64,000 nt of DNA from Gemmatimonadota bacterium (GCA_003134685.1 PLCA01000012.1:1211-65210), one strand, 5' to 3'. Numbered from the stretch's first letter, positions 1 to 56,913 are shown. The notes: a model not told the origin generated them from the letters alone. Numbers and translations are program-made.

Positions 1-57
1 TGGGAGAGCGCCTGGTTTGCAACTAGGAGGTCGCAGGTTCGAGCCCTGTACGCTCCA
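1..57 (+). tRNA. tRNA-Ala(TGC), 5' end outside the window
   Basis: The D-arm end, anticodon arm, variable loop, T-arm and acceptor 3' strand are visible. The anticodon loop TTTGCAA gives anticodon TGC (Ala). The T-stem GCAGG/CCTGT pairs, and the acceptor ACGCTCC plus discriminator A ends at 57; CCA is not encoded. The 5' part lies upstream, so an intact gene cannot be told from a 3' fragment. Everything from the anticodon loop onward recurs at 25.24 kb. Confidence 0.85.
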
Positions 58-24660: not shown

Positions 24661-24924
24661 AGGGGTCCACCAAACAAGGGCTTCGCCGCGGATACAAGGT
24701 CTATGGGAAGAAGTTCGGTAAGTAGACCGCACCGCGGTAGGGATTTCCGCGTCTCGAGCTGCTCGGGTCCACAATGGTGTCCGTTGTGGTGTCCATTCAG
24801 ATGCGCAAAATGTTCGCGGAAATGCGCAAAATCTTCGTAAATGCGCAACGTGCTGAGCAGGATGTTCGTGAAAGGCAGGCGAGTAGGAACTTCTGAGCCT
24901 AATTCATGTTCGTATGAAGCTGCC

Positions 24925-25050
24925 TAATAAGCGTGAGATCGGGGTAAGTTTCGGGGTGAGTTTCTCCCGGCAACCGCAATATTGCGTTCTGAAAAACCGG
25001 CACCGACGCTCGATTCCTCTATGAAGTCGGGCAGAATGTCGTGATTGCTT
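24925..25050 (+). repeat. Repeat family A, copy 2
   Basis: It begins with the tRNA-Ile-like core AATAAGCGTGAGATCGG, then the pair GTAAGTTTCGGGGTGAGTTT, CACCGACGCTCGATTCC and TGAAGTCGGGCAGAATGTCG. It is closest to the copy at 49128-49265. Confidence 0.75.
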
Positions 25051-25104
25051 TGGCGGTTTTCCCGCTTTGGGAACAGGAGATGCCCGCGTTGGAAAATCAA
25101 GACG

Positions 25105-25240
25105 CAATTCGGGGGTCTGTTTCGGGGTCTGTTTCTCCGGCGAAAGTACGACATCCACTAAGTGAGTGACCGGCTCCGACGCTCGGTTCCCCTCTAAAGT
25201 CCGGCAAATTGATGTAATTGGTTTGTGCTATGTTTTGATT
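25105..25240 (+). repeat. Repeat family A, copy 3 (runs into the tRNA-Ala tail)
   Basis: It is nearly identical to 10067-10215: CAATTCGGGGGTCTGTTTCG, GTGAGTGACCGGCTCCGACG, TCTAAAGTCCGGCAAATTGA and GTGCTATGTTTTGATTTGCAA. Here the tRNA-Ala T-arm and acceptor follow intact, unlike in copy 1. Confidence 0.82.
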
Positions 25241-25280
25241 TGCAACTAGGAGGTCGCAGGTTCGAGCCCTGTACGCTCCA
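25237..25280 (+). other. tRNA-Ala(TGC) 3' fragment
   Basis: TTTGCAACTAGGAGGTCGCA and the T-arm/acceptor are identical to 16-57. The 5' half of the tRNA is replaced by family A sequence. It is the second boundary of the 25.2-kb interval that starts with the tRNA-Ala tail at 1-57. Confidence 0.88.
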
Positions 25281-25481: not shown

Positions 25482-25657
25482 AACATACATCAACCAAAAA
25501 CGACATTCTGCCGGTGTTCATAGGGGAATCGGGCGTCGGTGCCGGAATGCTCCGACATTCAGGTCGTACCTTGCCGGGAGAAACGGGTAAAGAAACGGGT
25601 AATCGCTACAGACCGATCTTGGGGGCGGTACATCTGCCTTTCGCGAGCAGTGCCGAC
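25467..25657 (+). repeat. Repeat module P, copy 1 (palindrome plus inverted family A)
   Basis: The palindrome GAGCAGGAACATACAT is followed by an inverted family A arm (GACATTCTGCCGGTGTTCAT, GGGGAATCGGGCGTCGGTGC, GAGAAACGGGTAAAGAAACG) and CATCTGCCTTTCGCGAGC. It matches 36833-37021. Confidence 0.8.
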
Positions 25658-27103: not shown

Positions 27104-27202
27104 GTGGGAGGGCACCGAAAGCGGTTTCCCTCATTAGAATGCTGGCCATAGAAGCCAATCAGTAGCCAATCGATAGCAAGGCAGGCCCTCTTTGTCAGAA
27201 TG

Positions 27203-27238
27203 CAGAAACCCCGCTTACGGACGTATCCATAAGCGGGG
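27203..27238 (-). terminator. tRNA-Ile terminator (minus strand)
   Basis: CCCCGCTTA and TAAGCGGGG pair perfectly around a 12-base loop. On the minus strand the stem is followed by TTTCTGC. It lies 17 bases beyond the tRNA-Ile tail; a near copy is at 32590-32625. Confidence 0.7.
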
Positions 27239-27255
27239 CACAAAGTTCTGATTCA

Positions 27256-27300
27256 TGGGCCTGCGAGGAGTTGAACCTCGGACCTCACGCTTATCAGGCG
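27256..27300 (-). other. tRNA-Ile(GAT) 3' fragment
   Basis: Read on the minus strand: CGCCTGATAAGCGTGAGG, T-arm CGAGG-TTCAACT-CCTCG (perfect stem) and CAGGCCCA. The T-stem sequence differs from the copies at 15.7 and 32.7 kb while still pairing, so the copies come from different sources and are not simple duplications. Confidence 0.85.
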
Positions 27301-27432
27301 ACCGTAGGGGAGCAAGAAGTCCGGCAAGAAACCACTAAATCGTTGACGGACAGCGTGATCTGCCGTAGTTGGGCCTTCGGAATGCCGGATAATGTCGGAG
27401 GCAATCGACAGCGGAATCGACAGCAAGACACG
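27287..27432 (-). repeat. Repeat family B, copy 3
   Basis: It shares ACCTCACGCTTATCAGGCGA, AAGAAGTCCGGCAAGAAACC, GTTGACGGACAGCGTGATCT and paired ATCGACAGCGGAATCGACAG with the copies at 15.6, 25.7 and 32.7 kb. Confidence 0.82.
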
Positions 27433-27603
27433 GTCGTCGAAAGTACGTACGACGGAGCCGTTCTTAAGCTATCACCCAGCATCAGGGGGCAAACAGGAAT
27501 TCGGCGAGAAGCCAACACAGGCGCTAACGACCGCTTACCGAGTCGCGACGACGGTTCACCGAAAGGCTGAAGCTCTGTGATATAGGGAGTCGTACGTTGC
27601 AGC

Positions 27604-29793
27604 ATGACTCGGTCTCTCCTCACAGGGGTGTTGCTCGCGGTCGCATCTTTCGCGACTGCTTGGCAGGCGGTAAGCGCACAATCACCCGACAGCGCGCGAT
27701 TCGTCCGTGGGACGGTTCGCGACAATGATGGAGCGCCGATAGCTGGCGTCGATGTGTTTCTGCTCGAATCGCTGGAAGGAGCGACTACAGACTCCGCCGG
27801 CCGATTCACCATCCGCACGATACAGCGCGGAGCGGCGACGATCGTTGCCAGGCGGATAGGGTTTGCACCGACCCAGCGCGCGGTTGATCTCGCGACCGCT
27901 GGCTCCGTCCAGATTTCTCTCGTAAGACAAGCCCCGGTTCTCATCCCCATAACCGTGGTCGCGGGGGCATACACCGCCGGCTCCGAGCGTGGCGCCGTGC
28001 TCAACGCGATTCAGGTGGCATCCACGCCGGGCGCCACGGCGGACATCGCGCGAGCGATCCAAACGCTTCCCGGCGTGCAGAACGTGGATGAGGGTACCGG
28101 GCTTTTCGTGCGTGGCGGCGACGTCAGCGAGACGAAAGTGCTTCTCAACGACGTCGTGATGATCGAGCCCTACAATTACGAGACGCCAACCGGCAACTAC
28201 ACCGTAACCGTCGATCCATTCCTGCTCGACGGGATTTTCTTTTCGTCCGGTGGATTCGGAGCTCGGTACGGCAACATCCTCTCAGGCGTCGCCGATCTTC
28301 GCACTCAGGGCCGCCCGGTTCAGACGTCCGTTGTCGCTACAGCCGGACTTGCTGCTGTTTCAGCGGGACTCAACCTCGCGCTCCCTCATGGCGTCGGGAC
28401 GCACGCGACTGCAACACGAAGCGACACGCGACCAATGTTCAAGCTGAATGGCAGCACCCGCTCCTATTCGCCGGCGCCGAACGGCACGGACTTTAGCGGC
28501 AGTGCCATCTGGAAATATCGGCCGAGCGCCGAGTTCAAGTCATTCGGCATCGTGCGCCACAGTGCACTCGGAATCGAGCCGAGCGATCCGTCTGCGTCGG
28601 GCGGATATGCTGCTGACTTCCGCAGCTCGATGTATCAAACCGGCTGGAAGGATCTCTTCGGCGCCGTCGCGCCGACCATCAGCGTCTCCTCCGCCCAGAC
28701 ACACCGCGCTGAAGAATTCGGCGCCTTCACACTCGGCGACATCGAGCGCTCGACCCAGCTTTTCGCGCAGACAGCGTGGACTGCCGCAAATGCGCTCACG
28801 CTGCGCACTGGTGTGGATGCGGAATGGCGCAGCGCCCGATTCGTTGGAAGAGTGCCAAGCGTGGGACTCACGAAGTTCGATTCGAAAACTTCTGGCGCCA
28901 GGAACGGTCTGTTCGTCGAATCGGATTTCCAGCCGGTGAACGCCCTGAGGCTGGTGACGGGAATCCGCAGTGACCGCTCCTCATTCACCAATGTTCGAAC
29001 GGTTGATCCGCGCGTCTCGGCCGCGCTTCGAGTTGGAGGCAGTGCCACGATCACATCCGCGTGGGGAGTCTATCACCAGGTTCCAGATCCGCTCTACTTC
29101 GACGCCGCCCTGGGTCGACCCGGGCTCGCGCCGATGTCTGCGCGCCAGGCTGTGATCGGGGCGCAGCTCGGGGACGATGCCAACATTGCCCGCGTAGAGC
29201 TGTACGACAAGCAATATCACGATCTGGCGCAGCTGTCGCTCGACAGAGTCGTGGTCGGTGGTGGAACGGGCTCGAGCCACGGTGCAGACCTCTTTCTCAA
29301 GGGCGCCATTCCAGGAATTCTCGGCGGCAGAGTGTCGTACAGCTTCGTCGACGCGAACAGAACGGATCCGACGAGCGGACTCCGGGCCCGAGCGCCCTTC
29401 GATGTCACGCATTCCCTCACCGTTGTCGCGGAGAAGAATTTCGGGATTGGCTGGAACGCCAGCGGCGCGTTCCGCTACGCGACCGGAAAGCCGTACACGC
29501 CCGTCACCGGTGCGACGTTCGATCAAACGCGTCAGCTGTGGGTGCCGAGTTACGGCCCGCCATTCTCCCAGCGCCTCACGCCGCTCCAGCGAGTAGACCT
29601 CTCGATCAGCCGCTTCATACCATTGTCCCCGGAGTCATTCCTCGTCGTGTTCGCCTCAGTCAACAACCTCTTCGATCGGGTGAACGTCTTCGAGTATCGC
29701 TACAGTAGCGACTACACGCAGCGCATTCCCGTTCGAAGCCTGTTCAATCGCTCGTACTATGTGGGCGGCAGTATCTCGTTCGCTCGGCAGTAA
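27604..29793 (+). CDS. TonB-dependent outer-membrane receptor with N-terminal carboxypeptidase-like domain
   Basis: A 729-aa protein. A signal peptide (to VSAQ) is followed by a CarboxypepD_reg domain (residues 32-115; GTVRDNDGAPIAGVDVFLLE, TDSAGRFTIRTIQRGAATIV), a plug domain (140-250; LPGVQNVDEGTGLFVRGGDV, FGARYGNILSGVADLRT) and a C-terminal 22-strand-type beta barrel. It probably imports a ligand across the outer membrane using TonB; the substrate cannot be read. Next to it are a TPR protein and a LytS/LytTR pair, all rightward, so a signal-regulated uptake unit is likely. Confidence 0.93.
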   Translation: MTRSLLTGVLLAVASFATAWQAVSAQSPDSARFVRGTVRDNDGAPIAGVDVFLLESLEGATTDSAGRFTIRTIQRGAATIVARRIGFAPTQRAVDLATAGSVQISLVRQAPVLIPITVVAGAYTAGSERGAVLNAIQVASTPGATADIARAIQTLPGVQNVDEGTGLFVRGGDVSETKVLLNDVVMIEPYNYETPTGNYTVTVDPFLLDGIFFSSGGFGARYGNILSGVADLRTQGRPVQTSVVATAGLAAVSAGLNLALPHGVGTHATATRSDTRPMFKLNGSTRSYSPAPNGTDFSGSAIWKYRPSAEFKSFGIVRHSALGIEPSDPSASGGYAADFRSSMYQTGWKDLFGAVAPTISVSSAQTHRAEEFGAFTLGDIERSTQLFAQTAWTAANALTLRTGVDAEWRSARFVGRVPSVGLTKFDSKTSGARNGLFVESDFQPVNALRLVTGIRSDRSSFTNVRTVDPRVSAALRVGGSATITSAWGVYHQVPDPLYFDAALGRPGLAPMSARQAVIGAQLGDDANIARVELYDKQYHDLAQLSLDRVVVGGGTGSSHGADLFLKGAIPGILGGRVSYSFVDANRTDPTSGLRARAPFDVTHSLTVVAEKNFGIGWNASGAFRYATGKPYTPVTGATFDQTRQLWVPSYGPPFSQRLTPLQRVDLSISRFIPLSPESFLVVFASVNNLFDRVNVFEYRYSSDYTQRIPVRSLFNRSYYVGGSISFARQ

Positions 29794-29801
29794 CCACAAC
29801 G

Positions 29802-30614
29802 ATGTCCTCCAGTAAACCTCAACTCCAAGGATTCAAAGTGAGCAACAAGACTCTTTCGCTAGTAGCCGCTTCGGCACTCGTGATTTCCGGCGCTGCATTC
29901 GCGCAGGCGCCTGCGCTCACCGGCGCCAGCAAATGGACGGACTCCGCCGCTCACGAGATCGACGCCGCCACGGACGCTGGGGATCTGACGCGGCTTCGCA
30001 GCGCGAGGACTCTTCTCGACCGCGCGCTCGTGGCATTTCCCAATGATGCTTTGCTGCTTCACTACAAAGGTTACGAGCTCCATCGCGAGGCATCTCTCCA
30101 AGAGGGTCTCGGACACCGTAACGAGGTTGAGCCTCTGCTCGATCAAGCACGAACGGTTCTCGAGCAATCGCTGGCGGTAAAACCGATGCCAGAGACCCAC
30201 GCGCTGCTGTCGTCGGTGTTGGGCAGGTCGATCGGCTTCCACCCACTGAAGGCGATGTTTCTCGGACCTGAGTCCGGATCACAGATGACATCCGCGATCG
30301 CGCTTGGCCCAAACAACCCCCGGGTGTGGCTGCTGAGAGGCATCGGTGCGATGTTCACCCCGTCCCAGTTCGGAGGCGGAATGTCGGAAGCCGAGAAGCA
30401 CTTGAAGAAAGCGGCGGAGCTGTTCGAGACGGATCATCCGGTTCCGCCCGCCCCTTCGTGGGGAAGAGCGGAAGTCTACGCCTGGCTTGGTCAGGTCTAT
30501 CAGAAGCAGAACAAGCCCGACGACGCCACTGCTGCCTACAACAAGGCGCTGGCGATCGATCCCCAATTCAATTGGGTACGAAATGTGTTGCTCCCCTCAG
30601 TGAAGCCGCGCTAG
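29802..30614 (+). CDS. Secreted TPR-repeat protein
   Basis: A 270-aa protein (258 aa from GTG 29838, which gives a cleaner signal peptide, NKTLSLVAASALVISGAAFAQ). The mature part is helical with tetratricopeptide repeats: LLHYKGYELHREASLQEGLG, and at the C-terminus VYAWLGQVYQKQNKPDDATA followed by a conserved ALAIDPQ. It lies eight bases after the TonB receptor stop, so it is probably in the same operon as a periplasmic scaffold. Confidence 0.8.
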   Translation: MSSSKPQLQGFKVSNKTLSLVAASALVISGAAFAQAPALTGASKWTDSAAHEIDAATDAGDLTRLRSARTLLDRALVAFPNDALLLHYKGYELHREASLQEGLGHRNEVEPLLDQARTVLEQSLAVKPMPETHALLSSVLGRSIGFHPLKAMFLGPESGSQMTSAIALGPNNPRVWLLRGIGAMFTPSQFGGGMSEAEKHLKKAAELFETDHPVPPAPSWGRAEVYAWLGQVYQKQNKPDDATAAYNKALAIDPQFNWVRNVLLPSVKPR

Positions 30615-30624
30615 AATCTCTGTT

Positions 30625-31779
30625 GTGACAGAAGACAAAGAGACGACGACCGCGTCGTCGCGCGCTCGAAACTGGCTACTGTACGCGAGCGCCTGGGTTC
30701 CAGTCGCCGCCGCCTATGCGCAGCTGATCGGTCGCGAGCGCGGCACCTCGGGCTGGAACGCCAAATACTCCGGCGTCGACTACGCGATCATACCCGCTCT
30801 ACTCGGCGTCGCCGTCTGGTGGCTGACGGGACGGGTGCGGTGGCCGGCCAGAAATCCCCTTCTTTTCTTCGCGCTGCACCTTGTTTTCGCTACGATTTAC
30901 AGCGCGGCGTGGCTGGTTCTCGTGTTCGGCTCGATCGCGACGGGAGCTGGCTGGAGCGGCGCTGTGGCGACCACGCGGACGTTCGCCGGCTGGCAGATGG
31001 TTACCGGTTTCTGGACGTACGGGGTAATTGCCGGCATCGCTTACGCAATTCGCATCACGAAGAGCCTGAGAGAGAAGGAAGCAGCGAGGGCTCGCGCTGA
31101 AGCCGCTCGCGTCACTGCGGAGTTGAGTGCACTTCGTGGTCAGCTGAATCCTCACTTCCTTTTCAATACGCTTCACACCGTCATCGCTCTCGTCAGGCGC
31201 GATCCACACAAGGCTGAAGCAGCGCTGGAGCAGTTTGGCGAGATGCTTCGCTACGTTCTCGAACTCAATCGGACGAAGCAGGAGGATGTGCAGCTCGCCG
31301 ATGAAATCGAGTTCGTCAGGAATTTTCTGGCGCTCGAGCAATTGCGACTTACGGATCGCCTCCGCGTCGTCGAGAAAATCAGTCCGGACACCCTCGACTG
31401 CGTCATCCCTTCCCTGACGCTGCAGCCGCTGGTCGAGAACGCGGTGAAGTACGCCATCGCCCCGCGTGTCGAGGGAGGTCGGATCACGATTTCCTCCTGG
31501 CTCGAGGGCTCTTCGCTGGTGCTCGAGGTTGCGGACGATGGTCCGGGGTTCAGTGAGAGTGCCGCGAGCGGAACCGGGGTCGGCTTGCGCGCCGTCAGGC
31601 AGCGGCTCGAGACGCGCCATTCTGGGGAGAGCACTTTCGAGATCAAGTCGGCTCGCGGCGCCGGCTTCACCGTGCGGCTGTCGCTGCCGGCCCGCTCCGG
31701 GGCCGCAGTCCCATCCTTGAGATCGCTCCGACCGCCGGCTGCGCGCCCTGCCGGCTCTCTGGAGAGCGCCGTCGGATGA
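30625..31779 (+). CDS. LytS/YehU-type membrane sensor histidine kinase
   Basis: A 384-aa kinase starting at GTG 30625. About four predicted TM helices occupy residues 15-145, followed by a coiled coil and the His_kinase domain LRGQLNPHFLFNTLHTVIAL (phospho-His near 176), TLQPLVENAVKYAI (N box) and ADDGPGFSES with GVGLRAVRQRLE. Its last four bases overlap the LytTR regulator (ATGA), making a cognate pair. Confidence 0.93.
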   Translation: MTEDKETTTASSRARNWLLYASAWVPVAAAYAQLIGRERGTSGWNAKYSGVDYAIIPALLGVAVWWLTGRVRWPARNPLLFFALHLVFATIYSAAWLVLVFGSIATGAGWSGAVATTRTFAGWQMVTGFWTYGVIAGIAYAIRITKSLREKEAARARAEAARVTAELSALRGQLNPHFLFNTLHTVIALVRRDPHKAEAALEQFGEMLRYVLELNRTKQEDVQLADEIEFVRNFLALEQLRLTDRLRVVEKISPDTLDCVIPSLTLQPLVENAVKYAIAPRVEGGRITISSWLEGSSLVLEVADDGPGFSESAASGTGVGLRAVRQRLETRHSGESTFEIKSARGAGFTVRLSLPARSGAAVPSLRSLRPPAARPAGSLESAVG

Positions 31780-32516
31780 AGACCCGTGCGTTGATCGTCG
31801 AGGACGAGCGGATTTCGCGCGAGAGGCTGAGCGAGCTTCTGGAGCACGTGGAGTGGATCGAGTGCGTTGGCGAGGCGGCAGACGGAATTTCCGCGGTCCG
31901 CATGATTGACGAAATGCAGCCCGACCTGGTTTTCCTCGACATCGAAATGCCCGGGATGACGGGTATCGAGGTTCTGAGTCGAATCACGCACGATCCCGCG
32001 ATCGTTTTCACGACGGCGTACGATCGCTACGCCGTCACGGCGTTCGAGCTCGAGGCGCTCGACTATCTGCTCAAGCCTTTCGGATCAAAGCGACTTGCGG
32101 CGACGCTGGAGCGCGTGAAAAAGAGCCTGGACGGAGGAGGAGAGGTCTCGGTGGCCGAGCGCGCACGCGCGGCTCTCGGAGGTCGGGAGCCCTTCTCGCG
32201 CATTTTCGTGCGGGACCGGGGTCGGATCATCCCGATCGCCGTCGATGGCATCGACCGACTCGAAGCGGAAGACGACTACGTCGGAGTTCACAGTGGGGGG
32301 AAGCGGTATCTCGTCTATCTCACCATGAGCGAATTCGAAGCGCGACTCGATCCTCAGCGCTTCGTGAGGATTCATCGATCCCACATCGTGAATCTCGACA
32401 AGGTTGCGGCCTTCCTGCCCGAAGACGGTGGCCGGTTGTCGATCGAAATGAAGGATGGAACGAAGCTGAGTGCGAGCCGGACCCGGGCTAGGGAGTTGAG
32501 GCATTTAGCGATCTAG
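31776..32516 (+). CDS. LytTR-family response regulator
   Basis: A 246-aa regulator. The REC domain (1-120) has acidic pocket VEDERI, phospho-acceptor Asp in LVFLDIEMPGMTG and Lys in YLLKPFG. The LytTR DNA-binding domain (140-246) has IDRLEAEDDYVGVHSGGKRY and FVRIHRSHIVNLDKVA. It is translationally coupled to the LytS-type kinase. Direct repeats of about 12 bp near the TonB gene would be expected as target sites, but I cannot point to a convincing pair. Confidence 0.95.
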   Translation: MKTRALIVEDERISRERLSELLEHVEWIECVGEAADGISAVRMIDEMQPDLVFLDIEMPGMTGIEVLSRITHDPAIVFTTAYDRYAVTAFELEALDYLLKPFGSKRLAATLERVKKSLDGGGEVSVAERARAALGGREPFSRIFVRDRGRIIPIAVDGIDRLEAEDDYVGVHSGGKRYLVYLTMSEFEARLDPQRFVRIHRSHIVNLDKVAAFLPEDGGRLSIEMKDGTKLSASRTRARELRHLAI

Positions 32517-32524
32517 CCGGATCT

Positions 32525-32575
32525 CGGTAGCCAACCCACAGCAGGAACCGACAGCAGGAACCGACAGCAGACCCA
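32525..32575 (-). repeat. Arm-type tandem direct repeats
   Basis: Three units of CAACCCACAGCAG / GAACCGACAGCAG / GAACCGACAGCAG lie between the LytTR stop and the tRNA terminator, in the position expected of integrase arm-binding sites. Confidence 0.6.
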
Positions 32576-32589
32576 ATTTGGACAGGATG

Positions 32590-32625
32590 CAGAAACCCCG
32601 CCTATGGATGTATCCATAAGCGGGG
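32590..32625 (-). terminator. tRNA-Ile terminator, second copy (minus strand)
   Basis: CCCCGCCTATGGATG and CATAAGCGGGG form the same hairpin as at 27203-27238, with TTTCTGC on the minus strand. It follows the tRNA-Ile tail by about 18 bases. Confidence 0.7.
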
Positions 32626-32642
32626 CAAGAAATTCTGATTCA

Positions 32643-32687
32643 TGGGCCTGGGTAGAGTTGAACTACCGACCTCACGCTTATCAGGCG
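32643..32687 (-). other. tRNA-Ile(GAT) 3' fragment
   Basis: Minus strand: CGCCTGATAAGCGTGAGG, T-arm GGTAG-TTCAACT-CTACC (perfect stem) and CAGGCCCA. With the copy at 27256 it brackets the TonB-TPR-LytS-LytTR block of about 5.3 kb in direct orientation. Confidence 0.87.
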
Positions 32688-32815
32688 ACCGAAGAGGAGT
32701 AAGAAGTCCGGCAAGAAATCGTTAAATCGTTGACGGACAGCGTGATCTGCTGGTGTTTACCCTCGCGATGCCGGATAATGTCGTACTCAATCGACAGCGC
32801 AATCGCGGCTGTTAT
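32674..32815 (-). repeat. Repeat family B, copy 4
   Basis: It carries GAGTAAGAAGTCCGGCAAGA, GTTGACGGACAGCGTGATCT, GATGCCGGATAATGTCG and CAATCGACAGC. The same order and orientation as 27287-27432. Confidence 0.82.
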
Positions 32816-43220: not shown

Positions 43221-43403
43221 TCAGCCATTCGGCACTCGCTCGCTGATCTTTTTCGGGTGCGACATCACCAGGAGCATCGTGTCGTCGTCGGCCTGCTGGT
43301 AGCAGTTGACCAGCGTCTGGATATCCTTCCACCCGCCGACGGCGGCGACATCCTTGATCGGTAAGTCCTTTCTCGCGGTGGCCCACCCGCGCCGATAGGC
43401 ATG
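43221..43403 (-). pseudogene. Tyrosine recombinase (integrase) C-terminal stub 1
   Basis: A 60-codon remnant: HAYRRGWATARKDLP carries the HxxR box, DVAAVGGWKD the following helix, and LVNCYQQADDDTML the nucleophile Tyr. The tail ends at TGA 43221, facing the tRNA-Pro(CGG) tail. Everything before the His is missing because the next tRNA-Pro(GGG) fragment begins there. The catalytic R and first half of the enzyme are absent, so it is inactive. Confidence 0.88.
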
Positions 43404-43408
43404 CCAGA

Positions 43409-43535: not shown

Positions 43536-43690
43536 CTAGGCCACGCCTTTCTCTCGCAGCTTCAGCGTAACGCTGGTGACTGCCAGTACCGACTCTTCAT
43601 CCGACTGCTGATAAACTTCCAGCAGCGTGCTCACGTCCATCCATCCACCAGCAGCTGCTACGTCCTCTGCTGCAACGTTTGTTAGATGGC
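43536..43690 (-). pseudogene. Tyrosine recombinase C-terminal stub 2
   Basis: The frame reads EDVAAAGGWMDVSTLLEVYQ, with the nucleophile Tyr in VYQQ, and ends LKLREKGVA before TAG 43536. It is homologous to stub 1 but clearly different, so it comes from another element. The HxxR box is lost; upstream sequence switches to an attC-like half site next to the VOC gene. Confidence 0.82.
43659..43687 (-). other. attC-like left half site at the end of the VOC gene
   Basis: Minus strand ATCTAACAAACGTTGCAGC followed by AGAGGAC resembles an integron attC left half (R'' RYYYAAC, AA, CGTTGCAGC, GGAC). It lies 48 bases past the VOC stop. The right half is replaced by integrase stub sequence. Confidence 0.45.
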
Positions 43691-48936: not shown

Positions 48937-49265
48937 CCGCCTCTAAAGTCCGACGGTTTGTCGTGATTGGTCGAGTAATTCGCTGCGTCGGGAGCAGGTG
49001 TCAGTTCTGGTGTCAGTCGGATACGGACATCCGGAGACAGCAGCTAAGGTTGCACAGAACATTTTGCGATCCGTCAGAGTGAAATGCGGACATCTTGTCC
49101 TACCATAGCTTCTAGTTTCCATGCCTGACAAGCGTGAGGTCGGGGGTCAGTTTGGGGGTTAGTTTCTCCCGGCAAACCCCGATATTGATGTCGGAAAGAA
49201 TCGGCACCGACGCTCGATTCCCCTATGAAGTCCGGCAGATTGTCGTGATTGGTTAAGTAATTGCC
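48937..49265 (+). repeat. Repeat family A, copies 4 (partial) and 5
   Basis: Copy 4 is CCTCTAAAGTCCGACGG at 48941, followed by the pair GGTGTCAGTTCTGGTGTCAG. Copy 5 (49128-49265) has the tRNA-Ile-like core ACAAGCGTGAGGTCGG, the pair GGTCAGTTTGGGGGTTAGTT, CACCGACGCTCGATTCCCC and AAGTCCGGCAGATTGTCG, and runs into the tRNA-Ala tail. Confidence 0.78.
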
Positions 49266-49311
49266 CTGCTTTGCAACCAGGAGGTCGCAGGTTCGATCCC
49301 TGTACGCTCCA
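49265..49311 (+). other. tRNA-Ala(TGC) 3' fragment
   Basis: CTGCTTTGCAACCAGGAGGT through GCAGG-TTCGATC-CCTGT (T-arm) to ACGCTCCA. It differs from the copies at 1 and 25.2 kb in the anticodon stem and T-loop. To its right the DNA is coherent exopolysaccharide-locus sequence, so this may be the outer boundary of the mosaic. Confidence 0.85.
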
Positions 49312-50320: not shown

Positions 50321-50333
50321 CGAGGCTCCTCTT

Positions 50334-50425
50334 CGGTAGCTCGACTGGCATGGCGCCTGATCAGCGCTTTAGCCTCGTAGCTTTGCGTCGCCACCTTTCG
50401 GTGGGTTTGCCGGTTTTCGGAGGTG
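50334..50425 (-). promoter_or_regulatory. c-di-GMP-I (GEMM) riboswitch upstream of regulator A
   Basis: On the minus strand: CCGGCAAACCCACCGAAAGG, TGGCGACGCAAAGCTACGAG, GCTAAAGC, a variable hairpin, then GCCAGTCGAGCTACCG. This matches the GEMM aptamer in order: GGCAAACC, GAAA tetraloop, GACGCAAAGC, the second stem and the receptor/closing strand. The aptamer ends directly before AAGAGGAGCC and the ATG, so ligand binding could alter ribosome access. Confidence 0.9.
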
Positions 50426-56785: not shown

Positions 56786-56913
56786 GAGTAACTACGCTGC
56801 TCAGAGCAAAGCCGTCGAGAGGCGGTGACGCAGAGCCACGGGGCTAGAGCGGGTCTTCCGCGAAGCCAGCCGAGCCGCCAGTGAATCCGACAATCGGTCG
56901 GTGCCGCGGCGGC
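56786..56913 (+). promoter_or_regulatory. c-di-GMP-I (GEMM) riboswitch with Rho-independent terminator
   Basis: GAGCAAAGCCGTCGAGAGGC, GGTGACGCAGAGCCACGGGG, CTAGAGCGGG, a variable stem and AAGCCAGCCGAGCCGCC match the GEMM order, with GAGA as the tetraloop. Its last bases GCCGCC (56875-56880) can pair instead with GGCGGC at 56908, which is followed by TTTTTT, giving a mutually exclusive terminator. That arrangement predicts read-through when the ligand is bound (ON switch; inference). Confidence 0.87.

Follow-up and report, generated by a model that had tools for sequence, protein, structure and literature searches.

A four-gene operon of an uncultured Gemmatimonadota bacterium lies between two direct copies of a module built around the 3' end of a tRNA-Ile gene, which raises the question of how it came to be there. 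We analysed a window of 64 kb that comprises bases 1211-65210 of the 73-kb contig C15, in a genome (G000) of 3.6 Mb that is 98% complete and assembled in 16 contigs (such an assembly may carry joins). A reading of the sequence alone had taken the operon for the cargo of a cassette, and this is borne out by matching arm repeats at the ends of the segment and by a relative in which this half-site occurs together with an integrase. We hold it very probable that the cassette is an integrated element with the att ends of a tyrosine integrase targeting the anticodon loop of tRNA-Ile, that its integrase was lost, and that it was stacked by accretion. The anatomy of the cassette, the matching of segment ends, the sources of the tails and the integrase-bearing relative that shares the half-site are direct observations.

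The cassette and its end modules

The two modules occupy positions 27151-27425 (left) and 32533-32810 (right) of the window and consist, in the sense of the tRNA (minus strand), of family B (~125 bp), a 45-nt tRNA-Ile tail, a terminator hairpin and arm repeats. The sequence-only reading had described flanking modules of the same order and orientation on the minus strand, and both are present where it placed them, except that its left limit (27203) leaves the left arm repeats (27151-27180) just outside. The modules are 85-86% identical across ~220 bp (BLAST, E 6e-70), and their core pattern has 8 matches in the 64-kb window versus 0.00 expected. The cassette itself (27300-32687, minus strand) measures ~5.39 kb between two tRNA-Ile cores, and its proximal end is on the right. 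tRNA identity runs in both tails from CGCCTGATAA, in the anticodon stem/loop, through the tRNA 3' end, and the arm motif GCTGTCGRTT is found at both cassette ends (tails and arms were mapped by BLAST).

At the proximal end, the 3' tail of tRNA-Ile(GAT) (32643-32687, minus strand, like all the module parts that follow) has the T-stem GGTAG/CTACC. Next to it lies a terminator hairpin supplied by the element (32596-32625; inverted repeat CCCCGCTTATGGATAC..CATAGGCGGGG); the inverted repeat is kept in copies at C16:159169, in G176 and in G092, and the hairpin would terminate a regenerated tRNA-Ile. The proximal (P) arm (32533-32571) contains GCTGTCGGTT twice and one variant, GCTGTGGGTT, and its motif class also adjoins an integrase in the relative G016 and truncated integrases in G117 and G168. 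The distal (P') arm belongs to family B (27300-27425) and combines GCTGTCGATTCCGCTGTCGATT at 27403-27424, i.e., GCTGTCGATT twice, with a conserved spacer, as an alignment with further copies from this genome and its relatives shows. Beyond the cassette, the distal tRNA-Ile tail (27256-27300; T-stem CGAGG/CCTCG) is part of a neighbouring element at 25.67-27.30 kb, to which a terminator hairpin (27209-27238) and a degenerate P arm (27151-27180; GCTATCGATT, GCTACTGATT) also belong, and the family B P' arm of the right-hand neighbour was placed by alignment at 32687-32810. That family B is the end of an integrase gene was considered but found no support: only small indels separate the aligned copies, and they show no homology to recombinases.

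The repeats just after one tail match those before the next tail, in the tandem run on contig C16 as well as in the window and in relatives. Several repeat types recur in this way at both ends of segments (ACTGTCCGTT, GTGTCCRTT, GCTGTCGRTT, GTGTGCCCGTT and others). In a permutation analysis of 13 segments of this genome and its relatives, the summed end-match was 137 versus an average of 108 when ends were mispaired, and none of 20,000 shuffles reached the observed sum. The ends are of unlike type in two segments (C16 151068-159126 and G092 199-2497), and in several others of the 13 the match to the segment's own end is among the best but not the top one. Since the ends of segments match, every segment represents a single element, and two elements join at the module between neighbouring segments.

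The two tails differ in source. The right one is identical (45/45) to the resident tRNA-Ile(GAT), whose intact gene lies at C16:143365-143438, whereas the left one is identical over 42/42 nt to the intact tRNA-Ile of G013, G045, G085-087, G089, G091, G131, G169 and G301, which belong to other genera except for one congener, G169. Their T-stems differ in three of the five pairs, with changes on both sides, so that both stems still pair, as had been claimed; when either tail is joined to the resident 5' half, ARAGORN calls a tRNA-Ile. The proximal tail of an element is its own contribution, which assigns the left tail to the neighbour at 25.67-27.30 kb; different histories for the two cassette ends would thus be expected, and the tail identities support them, in agreement with the proposal that the ends came from separate integration events. 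The tails also show that an arriving element can give an essential tRNA gene a different 3' half with its stems still paired.

The array, its integrases and the origin of the cassette

The window begins inside a tRNA-Ala(TGC) gene at its left edge, and a two-base gap interrupts this gene just left of the window. The gene (window 1-57; C15:1186-1267) carries a two-N scaffold join and a short duplicated stretch, and it is because of the join that ARAGORN misses it. Ala tails are found at 25236-25280 and 49265-49311, and Pro(TGG) and Pro(GGG) tails are also present. The sequence-only reading had named tRNA-Ile modules; it missed the tRNA-Ala anchor of the array, the Ala and Pro tails and an apparent inversion. 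All modules between 25.5 and 38.1 kb are on the minus strand and those on either side on the plus strand, which we read as an inverted block: the ~12.5 kb that hold the cassette appear to have been turned around. At 24776-25280, three consecutive arm units carry almost no cargo (C-type arm, 22-nt Ile core, F-type arm, Pro-like core, F-type arm, Ala tail). The 22-nt tRNA-Ile core stub recurs at 24922, 25653, 36770 and 49123, near or directly before F-type arms, and the stub at 25653 carries an insert shared with G161 and G170. Two c-di-GMP-I riboswitch aptamers lie just outside the array (50332-50421, minus strand; 56795-56882, plus strand), where response-regulator/GGDEF genes and a gene for a Big_2 repeat protein are nearby.

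Behind the intact tRNA-Ile on C16 stands a tandem series of further tails, arranged in the same way. Other tRNA-Ile tails are distant from that gene, at C12:283692 and at positions 177870 and 377520 of C4, and one of these lies ~10 kb downstream of tRNA-Pro(TGG) and the full-length integrase found there. The genome holds about two dozen arm modules in four families, a lower bound that covers the genome stretches read, versus seven tyrosine recombinases in a PF00589 profile search, two of which resemble XerC/D.

On contig C15 this search reported no PF00589 recombinase, which agrees with the earlier statement that the cargo has no mobility gene. The window does hold C-terminal remnants of tyrosine integrases (43236-43406 and 43539-43679), beside the Pro(TGG) and Pro(GGG) tails. 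No intact B-type integrase was found in the genome; what comes closest is an enzyme of 419 aa at tRNA-Pro(TGG), 42% identical, besides a fragment at tRNA-Ser. Integrase-bearing relatives that share the half-site of the cassette do exist. In these, the integrase lies directly behind the arm repeats and adjoins an intact tRNA-Ile, in truncated form in G117 and G168 and at full length (412 aa) in G016. The G016 element is 13.9 kb long, with TGTCGATT repeats beside the tRNA gene and repeats of the same type plus a tail closing its far end. Its integrase goes with a slightly different repeat, GGTGTCGATT in place of GCTGTCGATT, and the truncated integrases, which are of the same group (the G168 copies are 69-71% identical to that of G117), adjoin GCTGTCGATT repeats. 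In G129 and G120, full-length related integrases are paired with arms of the GTGTCC type. We rejected G117 as an autonomous parent, its integrase being truncated at the N-terminus, and used G016 instead. For the present cassette, neither an intermediate nor the deletion step itself was seen.

Given integrase-bearing relatives and degraded pieces of integrases, we model the cassettes as remnants of elements whose sites were retained while the enzyme was lost. A tyrosine integrase, presumably of the G016/G168 type, would recombine in the anticodon loop of tRNA-Ile, the cores being 3' halves of this tRNA. The direct repeats that flank the core (GCTGTCGRTT here) recur as TGTCGATT pairs in the integrase-bearing G016 element and are candidate arm-binding sites for such an enzyme. 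The element would bring its own tail and terminator, so that the tRNA gene it enters is rebuilt. The integrase would then have been wholly lost, with the sites and the four-gene operon kept, and successive insertions at an existing tail may have placed elements side by side, the stack lying inside a larger composite island anchored on the tRNA-Ala in which the window begins. The cassette would now be stranded unless a matching integrase arrives. Several observations weigh against this model: neither an empty site nor an excised circle was seen, the genome has no intact B-type integrase, two of the 13 segments have unlike ends, and the G016 integrase goes with a deviating repeat.

The abundance of modules relative to integrases could also point to an active system, in which modules are recombined in trans and resident integrases shuffle cassettes among Ile, Ala and Pro tails on an integron-like platform. 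This would fit with the tails of several tRNAs in a single array, with modules that are nearly perfect, the right one among them, and with the related integrase that this genome carries at full length at tRNA-Pro(TGG). We nevertheless consider it unlikely: the B-type integrase is not resident, the P arm of the left neighbour is degenerate, and no empty or rearranged versions were seen, the flanks being without close counterparts in 18 congeners. Integron arrays hold many units between repeated recombination sites, each without a recombinase of its own, and this layout is shared by the present array; the sites here, however, are of the att type, with a tRNA core and direct arm repeats, and a recombinase beside the array was not found. 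Unlikely, too, is the wider idea that Gemmatimonadota maintain living cassette arrays, in which the 3' tails of several tRNAs are interchangeable sites and a few integrases gather, invert and exchange operons in trans, as in an integron-like gene bank.

The bracket might instead stem from homologous recombination between module repeats at dispersed places, or from segmental duplication between them, with no integrase involved for this cassette. The modules are indeed repeats of ~85-90% identity, and the block from 25.5 to 38.1 kb is apparently inverted; yet the ends match within segments, the distal tail comes from a different tRNA lineage, and tail, terminator and arms are complete and in the order required of an integrase site, which makes this origin quite improbable.

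The cargo operon

The cassette is filled by four intact open reading frames on the plus strand, none of which encodes a recombinase or relaxase. They encode a TonB-dependent receptor with a carboxypeptidase-regulatory-like N-terminal domain (27604-29793; 729 aa; Pfam PF13715, PF07715 and PF00593), a TPR protein (29802-30614; 270 aa; Pfam TPR families), a LytS-type sensor kinase (30625-31779; 384 aa; PF06580 and PF02518) and a LytTR response regulator (31776-32516; 246 aa; PF00072 and PF04397). The operon had been called complete for uptake plus regulation; it is intact in all four genes, and uptake is a putative role taken solely from the family of the TonB receptor. The stop codon of the LytTR gene is ~17 bp from the arm, and thus no integrase remnant is left in the cassette. 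Before the receptor gene, the direct repeats ACCGCTTACCGA ... GGTTCACCGA (27530-27565, plus strand) form a putative LytTR operator; similar repeats precede the operon in G169, G117, G118 and G119, and the cargo may be a self-regulated receptor/two-component operon.

The four-gene operon is present in many genera. In genus g29 (G117, G118 and G119), its neighbours on either side are conserved, and a search beside it found no Ile module; in genus g9 its neighbours are partly conserved. The genes outside the cassette in the window were not near the operon at any locus examined, and neither they nor their proteins have close counterparts in 18 congeners. The TPR gene occurs in only three of these 18, and G169 is the only one in which the whole operon was seen, on a contig of 4644 bp that stops where the operon does on either side. 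Synteny conserved between the cargo and outside genes, which had been named as the observation that would speak against a cassette, was looked for and not found. Since the operon elsewhere has conserved neighbours and no modules, and the outside genes here are different, it belongs to the chromosome as a unit in some lineages and is the cargo of a cassette in this genome. That the operon is part of the resident chromosome here too, and the tails chance or unrelated repeats alongside, can hardly be true. The conserved neighbours in g29, and partly in g9, would favour it, but the outside genes of this genome are different and strain-specific, and eight core matches stand against none expected.

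Relation to known systems

The closest known kinds are the cis-mobilizable elements (CIMEs) and, in Dehalococcoides, the islands that stand in tandem at ssrA; the anatomy fits these and does not make a new system. The array reads as a scaled-up form of the stranded islands known from tRNA genes. Streptococcal CIMEs have att sites at both ends, have lost integrase and transfer genes, carry 1.2-13 kb of cargo and form tandems by accretion, and gene-less microCIMEs measure 130-220 bp (PMC7563491). The cassette similarly keeps core, arms and tails at both ends, lacks integrase and transfer genes, has a small cargo and stands in tandem, while the cargo-less units at 24776-25280 resemble microCIMEs. 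The streptococcal examples of that study, however, were found in tandem with ICEs or IMEs at a single target gene (PMC7563491), whereas here many integrase-less units mix several arm families and tRNA cores away from tRNA-Ile, and a conjugative parent was not identified. In Dehalococcoides, long strain-specific runs of islands are separated by repeats of the 3' end of an RNA gene, and 15 islands, about half, have no integration module (PMC3146451); the run of cargo islands described here is alike in both respects. The differences are that the Dehalococcoides islands use a serine recombinase and a tmRNA target, with all repeats at most 100 kb downstream of ssrA (PMC3146451), and that the array is of the tyrosine integrase type, has its sites in the anticodon loop, involves several tRNA genes and runs in both orientations.

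The islands sought by Islander share with the cassette a tRNA-gene target, an anticodon-centred crossover and an element that rebuilds the gene and leaves a displaced fragment behind (PMC4383910). This finder demands an integrase gene in the interval, together with a matching tRNA gene that shares its replicon and orientation, and it reported only four tandems of at least three islands in 2168 genomes (PMC4383910). The cassette fails these filters and would be missed: it contains no integrase, both its bounds are tails, and the intact tRNA-Ile is on another contig (C16:143365). Tycheposons are likewise bordered by tRNAs, carry cargo and depend on a tyrosine recombinase, but they encode this enzyme (PMC10872708) and the cassette does not. 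The array differs from what is known in that several tRNA cores and arm families are mixed, in both orientations, on a contig from which tRNA-Ile is absent. Because standard finders need an integrase and a nearby matching tRNA gene, such arrays are invisible to them. If stranded cassettes are this common in Gemmatimonadota, a sizeable share of the strain-specific genes of an abundant soil phylum moves, or has moved, by a route that is not counted.

A phage or viral origin was rejected, the family B pattern having no exact match in viral contigs. The named relatives with the module are Gemmatimonadota assemblies, with one exception: a 3.7-kb contig with a family B arm (JADGNP010000557.1) is filed under Candidatus Sulfotelmatobacter. 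This contig is probably misbinned; otherwise, it would represent a transfer across phyla.
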